From Chitinophagaceae bacterium (GTDB lineage Bacteria; Bacteroidota; Bacteroidia; Chitinophagales; Chitinophagaceae): DNA of 64,000 nucleotides. The stretch lies in NCBI GenBank assembly GCA_019638615.1, contig JAHBTL010000004.1, positions 62,001 to 126,000 of the forward strand, in the 5' to 3' direction. A program made the position numbers and the translations under genes. Each line of letters starts with the position of its first letter. Position 1 is the first letter of the stretch. The notes beneath the pieces are model-generated. The model was not told where the DNA came from. It saw only the letters and a program-made list of their open reading frames with translations, and searched no databases. Of this stretch, positions 12,988 through 55,103 are shown piece after piece.

Positions 12988-13119
12988 GGACGTATTTAAA
13001 ATTGTCGCTGCATATTTAGTTGCCCTCACCTCTGCCGACAGACGGGCCTCTTATTCTCTCTCCGCGTCCTGCATGAGCGGGAGCGAGGGAAAAGCGATGC
13101 GACAATTTTAAATGTACCC
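12988..13119. mobile_element. 132-bp MITE-like element with terminal inverted repeats and 8-bp near-duplication
   Basis: The left arm, GGACGTATTTAAAATTGTCG from 12988, is mirrored by the right end (reverse complement GGGTACATTTAAAATTGTCG, from 13119); TTTAAAATTGTCGC is perfect on both sides (12995-13008, 13099-13112). The flanks GTTCTGTT (12980-12987) and GTTCTGCT (13120-13127) agree at 7 of 8 bases, as expected of a target duplication. It has no coding capacity. It lies between the DUF1080 gene and the his promoter, which starts 34 bp further right. Confidence 0.65.
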
Positions 13120-18730: not shown

Positions 18731-19026
18731 GAGCGCGTTTACCTGCGGTCAGAACTATTTTCATTGCGGCAAAGCCAGAAATAAATATATATACTGCAAT
18801 AAAGTTCAATTTTTCGCAGGCATGTGGTATCTCATCGACCGGTAAATTTGCTTAGCGCGAAAATTATATATACCCCATATAGAAATTGCCACAGACCTGT
18901 CCGCCGTAGGCAGATGCGCAGATTTAATCTGTGCATCTGTGGCTAAAAAACACAGGGTATATCCTATGTTTTGCAGGCGCGACTGCTTGACTAAGCTGAA
19001 CGTTCTCACCGAAGGTAAATGCGCCC
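18731..19026. mobile_element. 296-bp MITE-like element with 25-bp terminal inverted repeats and palindromic core
   Basis: The left end starts GAGCGCGTTTACCTGCGGTC at 18731; the right end, read inward from 19026, starts GGGCGCATTTACCTTCGGTG. The 25-bp arms match at 21 positions. TGTTTTT occurs on both outer sides (18722-18728, 19027-19033), consistent with a slipped target duplication. Inside are a copy of the palindromic core (18888-18943, split by an inserted segment) and a stretch at 18830-18864 that also occurs near 37526. It lies between the 3' ends of hisB and a minus-strand gene and codes for nothing convincing. Confidence 0.6.
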
Positions 19027-35766: not shown

Positions 35767-37071
35767 TTATACTGTTATTTTTGAATGTGTTTTGGTGTCT
35801 TTCATGGATGCATATACCAGCAGCGATATAAGTATACAGCCGGTTACATACCAGTAAAACCAGGGTTCATGCCCCAACTGCTTACAGTAAAGTGCGATCA
35901 CTTCAGCCGTTCCGCCAAAAACAGCCGTTGTTACTGCGTAAGGCAATCCTACACCCAGCGCTCTTATTTCGGCGGGGAACAGCTCGGCTTTTACCACTGC
36001 GTTGATGGAGGTATACCCGCTTACGATCAATAACCCGCACATGATCAGCAGAAAAGCAGAACCCATGCCGGTGGTTATGCTGATGCCGGTAAGCAACGGT
36101 ACCGTGCAAAGCGTGCCGGATATGCCAAAGCCTATTAAAAGCGGTTTGCGTCCGATTCTGTCAGACAGGAGACCAAATGCCGGCTGCAGGAGAGCGAAAA
36201 GCAGCAGGCTGAAAAAAGAAATGAGGGTGCTTTGGTCAATGGTAAGCTTCACCGTATTTACGAGGAATTTCTGCATGTATACCGAATAAGTATAAAAAGC
36301 GATCGTGCCGCCTAAAGTGAGCCCGATAACGGTGATGACAGCGCGGGGATGCTTTAACAACTCCCCGATCGTACCCCGGTTTTCCCTGGCTTGTTTGCTG
36401 TGCTCAAAAGAAGCTGTTTCTTCTAAATTGCTCCTGATGTAAAATGCTACCACTGCCAGCAAAGCACCTATTACAAAGGGAATGCGCCATCCCCAGGCAT
36501 GCAGCTGTTCGGGAGTAAGCAAAAACTTTTGCAGCAGCAACTGGATGCCCAATGCGATCAGTTGCCCGCCGATCAGCGTTACGTACTGAAAGCTGGAGTA
36601 AAACCCCCGCCTGTTGTGTGATGCCATTTCGCTGAGATAGGTAGCCGAGGTTCCATATTCGCCGCCAACGCTCAATCCCTGCAGCAAACGGGCCATGAAC
36701 AATAAAACGGGAGCGGCCACCCCAATACTTTTGTAACCCGGTGTACAGGCTATGAGCAGTGACCCGAACGACATCAGCAGTATGGAGAGCGTCATCGCCT
36801 TTTTTCTTCCTGCTTTATCCGCGATGCTTCCGAACAGCCAGCCGCCGATAGGGCGCATCAGGAAACCCACTGCAAATATCCCGGCAGCATTTAATAATTG
36901 TGCGGTGCGGTCGGCGCTGGGAAAAAATACAGGAGAAAAATACAGGGCGAAAGCGGAATAAGCATACCAGTCGTACCATTCAACGAGGTTGCCTACGGAA
37001 CCACCGATAATAGCTTTAACGCGTTTCTTTGTGTCTGGTATGTGTGTGGTCTGAATGGTTTCCCGGGGCAT
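35767..37071 (-). CDS. MFS transporter, metabolite:H+ symporter (MHS) type
   Basis: The ATG at 37071 (MPRETIQTTHIPDTKKRVKAII) is chosen; a longer in-frame start at 37125 adds a Cys-rich stretch unlike the family. The 434-residue protein has 12 hydrophobic helices, the MHS signature GSVGNLVEWYDWYAYSAFALYFSPVFFP, the loop motif GSIADKAGRKKAM and LSVGGEYGTSATYLSEMA. Relatives carry 2-oxoglutarate, citrate, proline or shikimate. The mobile element at 37156 lies just upstream and probably contains or displaces its promoter. Substrate unknown. Confidence 0.88.
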   Translation of the reverse strand: MPRETIQTTHIPDTKKRVKAIIGGSVGNLVEWYDWYAYSAFALYFSPVFFPSADRTAQLLNAAGIFAVGFLMRPIGGWLFGSIADKAGRKKAMTLSILLMSFGSLLIACTPGYKSIGVAAPVLLFMARLLQGLSVGGEYGTSATYLSEMASHNRRGFYSSFQYVTLIGGQLIALGIQLLLQKFLLTPEQLHAWGWRIPFVIGALLAVVAFYIRSNLEETASFEHSKQARENRGTIGELLKHPRAVITVIGLTLGGTIAFYTYSVYMQKFLVNTVKLTIDQSTLISFFSLLLFALLQPAFGLLSDRIGRKPLLIGFGISGTLCTVPLLTGISITTGMGSAFLLIMCGLLIVSGYTSINAVVKAELFPAEIRALGVGLPYAVTTAVFGGTAEVIALYCKQLGHEPWFYWYVTGCILISLLVYASMKDTKTHSKITV

Positions 37072-37155
37072 TGTTTCAAAAATAGAAATATCATGGCATA
37101 ACCCAAAACAAAAGCGGGAGCACATCGCTTCCGCTTTGTATGTTTTGGATCGTTT

Positions 37156-37568
37156 GGGTGCATTTCAGATTTTCGGGGAGTGACCAAAAAGGTTACTAAA
37201 TAAATAATTTATTCGGATAGGTGATGGAGACTAATAGTCGTTTATGCGATTCTCAACGCCTTCATTTACCTTTTTGGTCAGCCCCTAGGACTCACTACCG
37301 GTCGGTGTCTCACCATAGCCGTCAACTTAAGCCCGAAGGGCTTGAATTTGAATAGGCCCCAACAAAGTTGAGGGACAGCAATGCCGAAGTTTTGTTGAAC
37401 CCCGTAGGGGTTCAATGTAAAATTGTCGCAAATATACCACCGGTTACACCGATGGCTATTCAAATTAAACCCCATTCGGGGTATTTAAGCGCCAGATTTC
37501 CTAAGTTGACGGCTATAGTGTCTCACCGACCGGAAAATTTGCATAGTGCGAAAATTTGAAATGCGCCC
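37156..37568. mobile_element. 413-bp MITE-like element with terminal repeats and perfect 8-bp target duplication
   Basis: The left end is GGGTGCATTTCAGATTTTC (37156-37174); the right end, read inward from 37568, is GGGCGCATTTCAAATTTTC. They differ at two of 19 positions. The flanks are identical: GATCGTTT at 37148-37155 and 37569-37576. The inside is a set of nested inverted repeats: TGACCAAAAAGGT/ACCTTTTTGGTCA (37181-37193, 37268-37280), CCGGTCGGTG/CACCGACCGG (37298-37307, 37524-37533) and a 15-bp pair at 37315-37329 and 37502-37516. TTGAACCCC/GGGGTTCAA forms a small hairpin at 37395-37415. No gene is seen. Confidence 0.85.
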
Positions 37569-37603
37569 GATCGTTTCGTAAAAGACAAATTCCGAAGCCT
37601 TCC

Positions 37604-38494
37604 TTATTTCAGTTTGGCTACTTCTGCGTCGTAATATTCTTTTGTAAAGATCACGTCGGGTAAATTATGATACCAGTTTGATTCGTGCTCGATGGAGAGC
37701 ATGCCACTGAAATTCTGCCTTTTCAGCTCGGCGAAAACAGCGGGAAAATCAATTACACCTTTGCTTACCACCGTATCCGCTGCTTTGGGATCGTCAAACT
37801 TTACAATGTCTTTTAAGTGACCGCCATATACATGGCCTTCCAGTTGTTTCAGGCATTCAACGGGGTTCAAGCCGTTGCGTGCCCAGTGACCGATGTCGGC
37901 GCAGGCTCCGATATTTTTATGTCCCTTAATAGCAGCCAGCACAGAATCAGGGGTGGCATACGCATTGGGTTTGGGGTGATCGTGAATGGCAAGCTTAATG
38001 TTATAAACACCGCCCAGGCTGTCTATGAAATCCCAGTGTTCTTTGGCCGGTTCGCAGGTGATATAGCTGAGCCCGAAATCTTTGGCAAGATCAAATGCTT
38101 TGACCCAGTCTTCCTGGCTTTTTGGAGAAATGACACCCATTGCTACAATGTTAATTCCTTTGGATTGCAGCAGTTGCTTCAGTTTGGAGCGAGTATCGGC
38201 AGACATGCCTATACCAAATTCGCCCGGCAGGTCACCGCCTAATTTCTGACCCCAGAATGCTTCGATGTGTTTGATGCCTGCACTGTCCACCTTATTCAGC
38301 GCATCGGTAAGCGGGAACATCCTGAACGTCCACATTTGTACACCCAGCTTAAAGCCGGCAGTGCTGCCTGTGCTGGCCAGGCTGTCTGTTTGAGGGGCAG
38401 CGTCTGCCTCTGAAGTACTGTTTGTGCTGCTGTTATTGCAGGAAAGAATGGCAAGCGAGCATATAGCCGCGAAAAGCCCGTTTCTGAATTTCAT
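37604..38494 (-). CDS. TIM-barrel sugar isomerase/epimerase lipoprotein
   Basis: A 296-residue lipoprotein: MKFRNGLFAAICSLAILSCNNSS with Cys19, then a Ser/Thr-rich linker. The AP-endonuclease-2-type TIM barrel follows with GVQMWTFRMFPLTDALNKVDSAGIKHIEAF, metal-ligand segments IKLAIHDHPKP, GACADIGHWARNG, VYGGHLKDI and SGMLSIEHESNW. As an exported enzyme, it should act on free sugars or 3-keto-sugars in the periplasm. It is the nearest gene right of the mobile element, whose end lies 36 bp past its stop codon. No partner gene is adjacent. Confidence 0.82.
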   Translation of the reverse strand: MKFRNGLFAAICSLAILSCNNSSTNSTSEADAAPQTDSLASTGSTAGFKLGVQMWTFRMFPLTDALNKVDSAGIKHIEAFWGQKLGGDLPGEFGIGMSADTRSKLKQLLQSKGINIVAMGVISPKSQEDWVKAFDLAKDFGLSYITCEPAKEHWDFIDSLGGVYNIKLAIHDHPKPNAYATPDSVLAAIKGHKNIGACADIGHWARNGLNPVECLKQLEGHVYGGHLKDIVKFDDPKAADTVVSKGVIDFPAVFAELKRQNFSGMLSIEHESNWYHNLPDVIFTKEYYDAEVAKLK

Positions 38495-44768: not shown

Positions 44769-44903
44769 GGGTACATTCCAAATACTCCATATAGAAATTG
44801 CCGCAGATGCGCAGATTTAATCTGTGCATCTGCGGCTAAAAAATCCAGGGTATATCCCTTGTTTTGCGGGCTTGTGCCAGCGGGGCTAATTTGGAATGCA
44901 CCC
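44769..44903. mobile_element. 135-bp MITE-like element carrying the palindromic core
   Basis: The ends are GGGTACATTCCAAAT (44769-44783) and ATTTGGAATGCACCC (44889-44903), one mismatch in 15. Flanking octamers ATGTATTC (44761-44768) and ATGTCTTC (44904-44911) agree at 7 of 8 bases. The palindromic core (GCCGCAGATGC...GCATCTGCGGC) is at 44800-44836. Its right end recurs at 54976. It sits between the GT4 and heptose kinase genes. Confidence 0.75.
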
Positions 44904-54975: not shown

Positions 54976-55103
54976 GGGTGCATTCCAAATTGGTCTCGCT
55001 GGCGCGCCCGCAAAAACACAGAATATACCCTTTTTTGGCCGCAGATCCACAGATTTAATCTGCGCGTCTGCGGCATTTTCTATATAGGGGTATATATAAT
55101 TTG
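54976..55103. repeat. Palindromic-core element in the spacer before the second haem lipoprotein gene
   Basis: The left end GGGTGCATTCCAAAT (54976-54990) is the same as the right-end arm of the 44769 element, read inward. The core (GCCGCAGATCC...GCGTCTGCGGC) is at 55038-55074. The right part (CTATATAGGGGTATATATAA from 55080) matches, in reverse, a stretch at 18862-18882 in the 18731 element. No target duplication was found, so this copy may be truncated. Confidence 0.6.

Follow-up and report, generated by a model that had tools for sequence, protein, structure and literature searches.

A 413-bp MITE with ISKra4-type ends and probable later insertions between two genes of a Chitinophagaceae bacterium

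Results and Discussion

The element and its insertion site

A palindrome-rich stretch of 413 bp separates two genes in the genome of a Chitinophagaceae bacterium, raising the question of what kind of element it is, which transposase could have moved it and whether it arrived in one piece. It lies in the window, by which we mean the whole 64,000-nucleotide stretch of DNA analysed here, and the genome of origin (G000) has 7.18 Mb in 87 contigs. An earlier note, made from the letters of the window, had described the stretch as a single non-autonomous transposon mobilised in trans by an unseen transposase, with the IS1595 and IS256 types named as examples of transposases that make 8-bp duplications. 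We consider another account highly probable, according to which an ISKra4-family MITE forms an outer shell that later received, in place, the insertions of an IS1182-type MITE and of a second element, named N.

The element occupies positions 37156-37568, with an MFS transporter gene downstream of the insertion (35767..37125, minus strand) and a xylose-isomerase-like TIM-barrel gene upstream of it (37604..38494, minus strand). Its 20-bp terminal inverted repeats match at 18 of 20 positions (left, GGGTGCATTTCAGATTTTCG, 37156..37175, plus strand; right, inverted, GGGCGCATTTCAAATTTTCG, 37549..37568, minus strand). Abutting both ends is a perfect 8-bp duplication, GATCGTTT, at 37148..37155 and 37569..37576, so that the boundaries and the duplication described earlier were both recovered. 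When up to three mismatches were allowed, the 19-base end matched the window only at 37156-37174 (plus strand) and 37550-37568 (minus strand), with 0.02 matches expected by chance. The nested palindromes were also confirmed, with arms of 32, 25 and 18 nt, and single-strand DNA folding of the element gave a z-score of -13.07 relative to 100 shuffles. Such a strong fold would suit a structured RNA or a cluster of regulatory hairpins kept for its function and not mobile. However, the sole Rfam match of the element was below threshold (19.5 bits for a cut-off of 82), the element is missing at the orthologous site of the closest relative, and about half of the paired elements of its family carry duplications, as described below. 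We regard a non-mobile functional structure as very improbable.

The orthologous site was found in G002, the closest relative, whose neighbour protein is 88% identical. The same gene pair is adjacent in this genome and the element is absent, the distance from the neighbour match to MFS residue 9 being 62 bp in G002 vs 505 bp in G000. Both genomes have a terminator-like hairpin between the two genes. The empty-site comparison proposed in the earlier note thus yielded an element-free gap, but an exact empty site with a single GATCGTTT was not seen in G002, because the insertion point lies in diverged sequence. Only this one of 11 relatives was informative, since no MFS gene turned up in the ten others, for which short loci surrounding the neighbour gene were inspected.

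A family of paired ends in the genome and the genus

Shell-type ends were abundant in G000, with 153 occurrences at up to three mismatches compared to 10 for a reversed-pattern control. With at most one mismatch, they were present in 14 of 38 genomes, which included all 12 genomes of the genus and two of 26 others. These two non-genus genomes had one match apiece, and the reversed control had one match, in G009. We then looked for pairs of ends in 153 sequences, consisting of the window and the loci collected, some of which overlap and many of which were picked for carrying ends. This yielded 44 distinct paired elements, of which relatives contributed eight and G000 or the window the other 36, a count that bears on paired ends alone and not on unpaired remnants. 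An adjacent duplication of 8 or 9 bp with at most one mismatch was observed for 23 of the 44 paired elements vs four of 1892 mispaired controls, which were left-right pairings between different elements. Perfect duplications were observed for 13 of the 44 and for none of the 1892 controls. In 14 of the 44 paired elements, no duplication was found even at up to three mismatches. These results agree with the view, already put forward in the earlier note, of a non-autonomous element belonging to a duplicating family.

The window itself contains other members. Three had been proposed, two of which showed paired ends and one-mismatch duplications, namely a second member of 132 bp (12988..13119, flanked by GTTCTGTT and GTTCTGCT) and a third of 135 bp (44769..44903, flanked by ATGTATTC and ATGTCTTC). 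The remaining site, at 18731, had no paired ends when searched with the 16-base end pattern at up to three mismatches. A 39-base stretch resembling the inner hairpin was found there together with other modules, and this site may represent a more decayed member of the family. A pair of ends 2344 bp apart (C9:49423 / C9:51766) was rejected as an element because an ordinary gene lies between them. Four stretches of viral contigs carried one end each, and none of these was paired. Another palindromic module was noticed both solo and within shells (window 18866-18960 and 54976-55030; L018 593-829); it is GCAGATGCGCAGATT-like and lies between ATATACCC-like ends.

Partner transposase

IS1595 transposases can make 8-bp duplications. 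The same holds for IS256, a family that PMC3942029 places in the Mutator-like superfamily with duplications of 8 or 9 bp, and the size of the duplication is therefore compatible with the transposase types first guessed. However, neither type was detected in the genome that harbors the element, as IS1595 (PF12762) and IS256 (PF00872) both had 0 matches in G000, with matches in two and four of the 12 genus genomes, respectively. Ten IS1595/IS256 transposase loci were available, and the five inspected (L086-L089 and L092) were without such ends. The attribution is also contradicted by ISKra4-like elements that bear the same ends, and we give an IS1595- or IS256-type transposase hardly any credence as the mover of the element. 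ISL3 (PF01610) was likewise rejected as a partner, having one partial match in G000 and one in G002, neither with these ends.

Transposase-size pairs were sought by eye among the ends listed, which for G000 were 100 of the 153, so that a G000 pair may have escaped notice. In the other genus genomes, one such pair enclosed transposase ORFs (G006:C34:28137-29411). This element of 1275 bp has perfect ends (GGGTGCATTTAAAATTGTCG) and a duplication (AGGCAGCA), and its ORFs are ISKra4-like. Scored separately as parts of a split gene, none of which reaches the NCBIfam cut-off of 205 bits for ISKra4, the C-terminal piece of the G006 copy had ISKra4 as its best family (1.8e-40, 139.3 bits), its N-terminal piece had ISLre2 (2.5e-06) slightly ahead of ISKra4 (6.4e-05, 22.2 bits), and ORF B of the G009 copy had ISKra4 (NF033572) as its top family with 189.5 bits over model positions 113-422 of 422. 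When the C-terminal piece of the G006 copy was used as a protein query, relatives were found in four of the 12 genus genomes. This C-terminal ORF detected no ISKra4-type transposase in G000, and none was detected in the G000 stretches examined. A G000 copy could be missing from the assembly, because the latter is divided into 87 contigs, some of which break at these repeats. The search for paired ends and for a transposase bounded by them, which had been suggested earlier, was thus successful for the pairs and, in relatives, for the transposase, but not for the transposase in G000.

A scan of species genomes for ISKra4-like transposases returned 14 loci, 12 of them labelled Bacteroidota, including Ferruginibacter and other Chitinophagaceae MAGs. 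Seven of the 13 loci examined (L157, L158, L159, L160, L161, L163 and L164) had GGGTGC(A)ATT-type ends located 1255-1337 bp apart and flanking the transposase. Among these seven, L159 is the G006 copy (also L111) and L157 is the G009 copy (also L132). Two other loci, from a cyanobacterium and an Anaerolineae MAG, had GGGTGCGTCCC-type ends, and no end pair was found in the remaining four, in three of which the match runs to the end of the stored sequence. Perfect 8-bp duplications bordered three of the seven GGGTGC(A)ATT-ended elements (L159, L163 and L164), the one at L163 (TCTTTTTT) being of low complexity. A 9-bp duplication was found at L168, and none was found at L157, L158, L160, L161 or L169. 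In all seven GGGTGC(A)ATT-ended elements, two ORFs overlap at an A9 run, with a -1 shift in three and a +1 shift in four, and slippage on this run could account for the mixed shifts. The G006 copy is in addition interrupted within its second ORF.

The ISKra4 family consists of prokaryotic Mutator-like DDE transposases. In PMC3942029, the repeats of the Mutator-like superfamily are given as 18-39 bp and its duplications as 8 or 9 bp. The shell ends are within the ISKra4 range, as they are 20 bp long and start with GGG, compared to 18-39 bp with a conserved terminal C/G. Because the ends and duplications match those of the ISKra4-like elements of relatives as well as these superfamily features, we concluded that the outer shell is an ISKra4-family MITE. 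With this family (p-MULT 4, comprising the ISAzba1, ISMich2 and ISKra4 groups), the shell shares ends of approximately 20 bp starting with G and duplications of 8 or 9 bp, and ISKra4-like transposases encoded by two ORFs with the A9 overlap lie between these same ends in relatives. The window element differs in that it has no transposase gene and contains other elements. PMC3942029 describes the ISMich2 group as having two ORFs joined by a -1 frameshift, whereas the elements of relatives show both shifts.

The inner layers M3 and N

The first inner layer, M3, is a 111-bp IS1182-type MITE (37175..37285, ends GGGGAGTGACCAAAAAGGT and ACCTTTTTGGTCAGCCCC) that spans positions 20-130 of the 413-bp element. 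Its first base doubles as the last base of the left terminal inverted repeat. M3 also recurs alone elsewhere in G000, and its ends are common to an IS1182 element on contig C56 (L103 1480-3298), which scored 383.5 bits against NF033551 (cut-off 270). We compared the borders of 15 M3-type end pairs (one right end is common to two of them); exact direct repeats there never exceeded 4 bp, and six of the 15 directly adjoin a shell end. In the window, M3 occupies the place of a 51-base hairpin of L047, a 140-bp shell, without a duplication. PMC4923244 reports that hairpins are the insertion targets of IS1272 and that they are partly deleted in the process, without any duplication; the window M3 fits this description, the hairpin being replaced and no duplication being present. 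M3 is similar to IS1272/TnSha1 (IS1182 family), with which it shares hairpin replacement without duplication, and its ends are those of an IS1182 element present in G000; it differs by having no transposase gene and by a target hairpin that lies within another MITE. Another IS1182-type MITE, at L034 1114-1248, was seen to contain an internal GTCATTGCGA...TCGCAATGAC repeat.

The second inner layer, N, consists of short hairpins arrayed over about 202 bp (37315..37516, from ATAGCCGTCAACTTAAG to CTAAGTTGACGGCTAT) in which no gene was seen. It lies inside the second shell hairpin, H, which it splits into a left part (CCGGTCGGTGTCTCACC, 37298..37314) and a right part (37517..37533). A duplication of approximately 11 bp flanks N, with its left copy, GGTGTCTCACC, at 37304-37314 within the left part of H and its right copy, AGTGTCTCACC, which has one mismatch, at 37517-37527 within the right part. 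As a raw count, 15 of the 26 N copies scored (27 listed) had 11-bp direct repeats on their flanks that differ at no more than two positions. The raw count for inverted flanking repeats was five of 26, one of which was also counted as direct. The sites of most N copies are GGTG-N3-CACC-like palindromes. When 49 paired elements were classed (the 44 above and five added later), 13 held N and 25 were only 77-141 bp long, without N. The small hairpins of the N copies (L001-L030) look interchangeable by eye, for example CCCCAAC..GTTGGGG in some copies and GTGAGT..ACTCAC in others.

We also searched for a source of N. The five G000 matches to DDE_Tnp_1 (PF01609), one of which is the IS1182 element, had no N ends within approximately 1.5 kb on either side. 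An N-type end shared by two contigs, C41 and C61, forms their first 75 bases or so (L108 and L109) and leads into an interior that is common to both but unassembled; elsewhere, this end had one weak place in G000 and 0 matches in the 11 other genus genomes. The GGTG-N3-CACC site of N is also where three contigs (C13, C55 and C72) break. The assembly gaps probably contain a longer repeated element bounded by N ends. IS231-like insertion sequences (IS4 family) choose palindromic targets. N resembles them by its palindromic sites with flanking repeats of about 11 bp but differs as a short-hairpin array, and our searches revealed no transposase bounded by N ends.

Assembly in place or transposition as a unit

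The shell is closely matched elsewhere, as 85 of the 86 bases compared between L047 and the shell parts of the window element are identical. The perfect GATCGTTT duplication could nevertheless also mean that the 413-bp composite transposed whole, an ISKra4-type transposase acting in trans and recognising the outer ends alone. Recognition of this kind needs the ends only, and perfect duplications were also found on composites of 294, 354, 385, 413 and 674 bp as well as on a 711-bp element in a relative. On the other hand, when the 413 bp were searched in G000, the window copy was the only full-length one among the 61 matches listed, with 40 of 171 first-look candidates scored. Moreover, the similarity of N is unrelated to that of the shell. 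In 11 hand-picked composites holding N, two of which (L002 and L003) have approximate ends, N identity and shell identity were uncorrelated (Mantel r = -0.19, p = 0.8, shell identities counting length differences). For seven of these 11 composites (21 pairs), N identity was 96-99% and shell identity 42-75%. Gene conversion among N copies would produce the same pattern. The lack of correlation favours a separate entry of N, and the 8-bp duplication is consequently best assigned to the shell of approximately 140 bp. Transposition of the whole composite seems unlikely to us. Rather than the single unit first described, the 413 bp are probably a layered composite of an ISKra4-type shell of about 140 bp, M3 and N.

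We propose the following scenario for this layered composite. A shell of about 140 bp, similar to L047, would have inserted between the MFS and xylose-isomerase-like genes, moved by an ISKra4-type transposase acting in trans, whose staggered cuts in the target would have been 8 bp apart. The shell would have brought two palindromic hairpins. Later, an IS1182-type MITE would have entered one hairpin and removed it without duplication, following the published habit of IS1272/TnSha1, and the separate element N would have entered the loop of the other hairpin, duplicating approximately 11 bp (GGTGTCTCACC). We infer the order of these events, the action in trans and the mobility of N itself from the arrangement of the layers. 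More broadly, the palindromic ISKra4-type MITEs of this genus might be landing platforms for at least two kinds of hairpin-seeking elements, including the uncharacterised N with its swappable short hairpins, hairpin-loop insertion and duplication of about 11 bp. The layering would keep the fold-back, creating a self-reinforcing 'Russian doll'. We put this generalisation forward tentatively, at slightly less than an even chance.

Relation to known systems

The window element is a real MITE of a known family, and its layering, together with the uncharacterised N, is the noteworthy part. Nesting itself is already known, since PMC3852290 mentions the separation of nested 'Russian doll' elements. 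Among the matches listed from the open-licence literature, at the level of titles and abstract openings, there was no description of this MITE family. Our analysis connects an orphan MITE family, found in a Chitinophagaceae-related genus, with a transposase family that was not among the first guesses and provides a worked example in which the hairpins of one MITE family are insertion sites for other MITEs. One layer is explained by a published mechanism, IS1182-type hairpin insertion, and N is a lead on hairpin-loop-directed transposition. The REP and GTAG repeats described in PMC3733652 are, like the window family, short palindromic repeats in many copies, but the window family differs from them by its terminal repeats, its target duplications and its DDE-type transposase partner.
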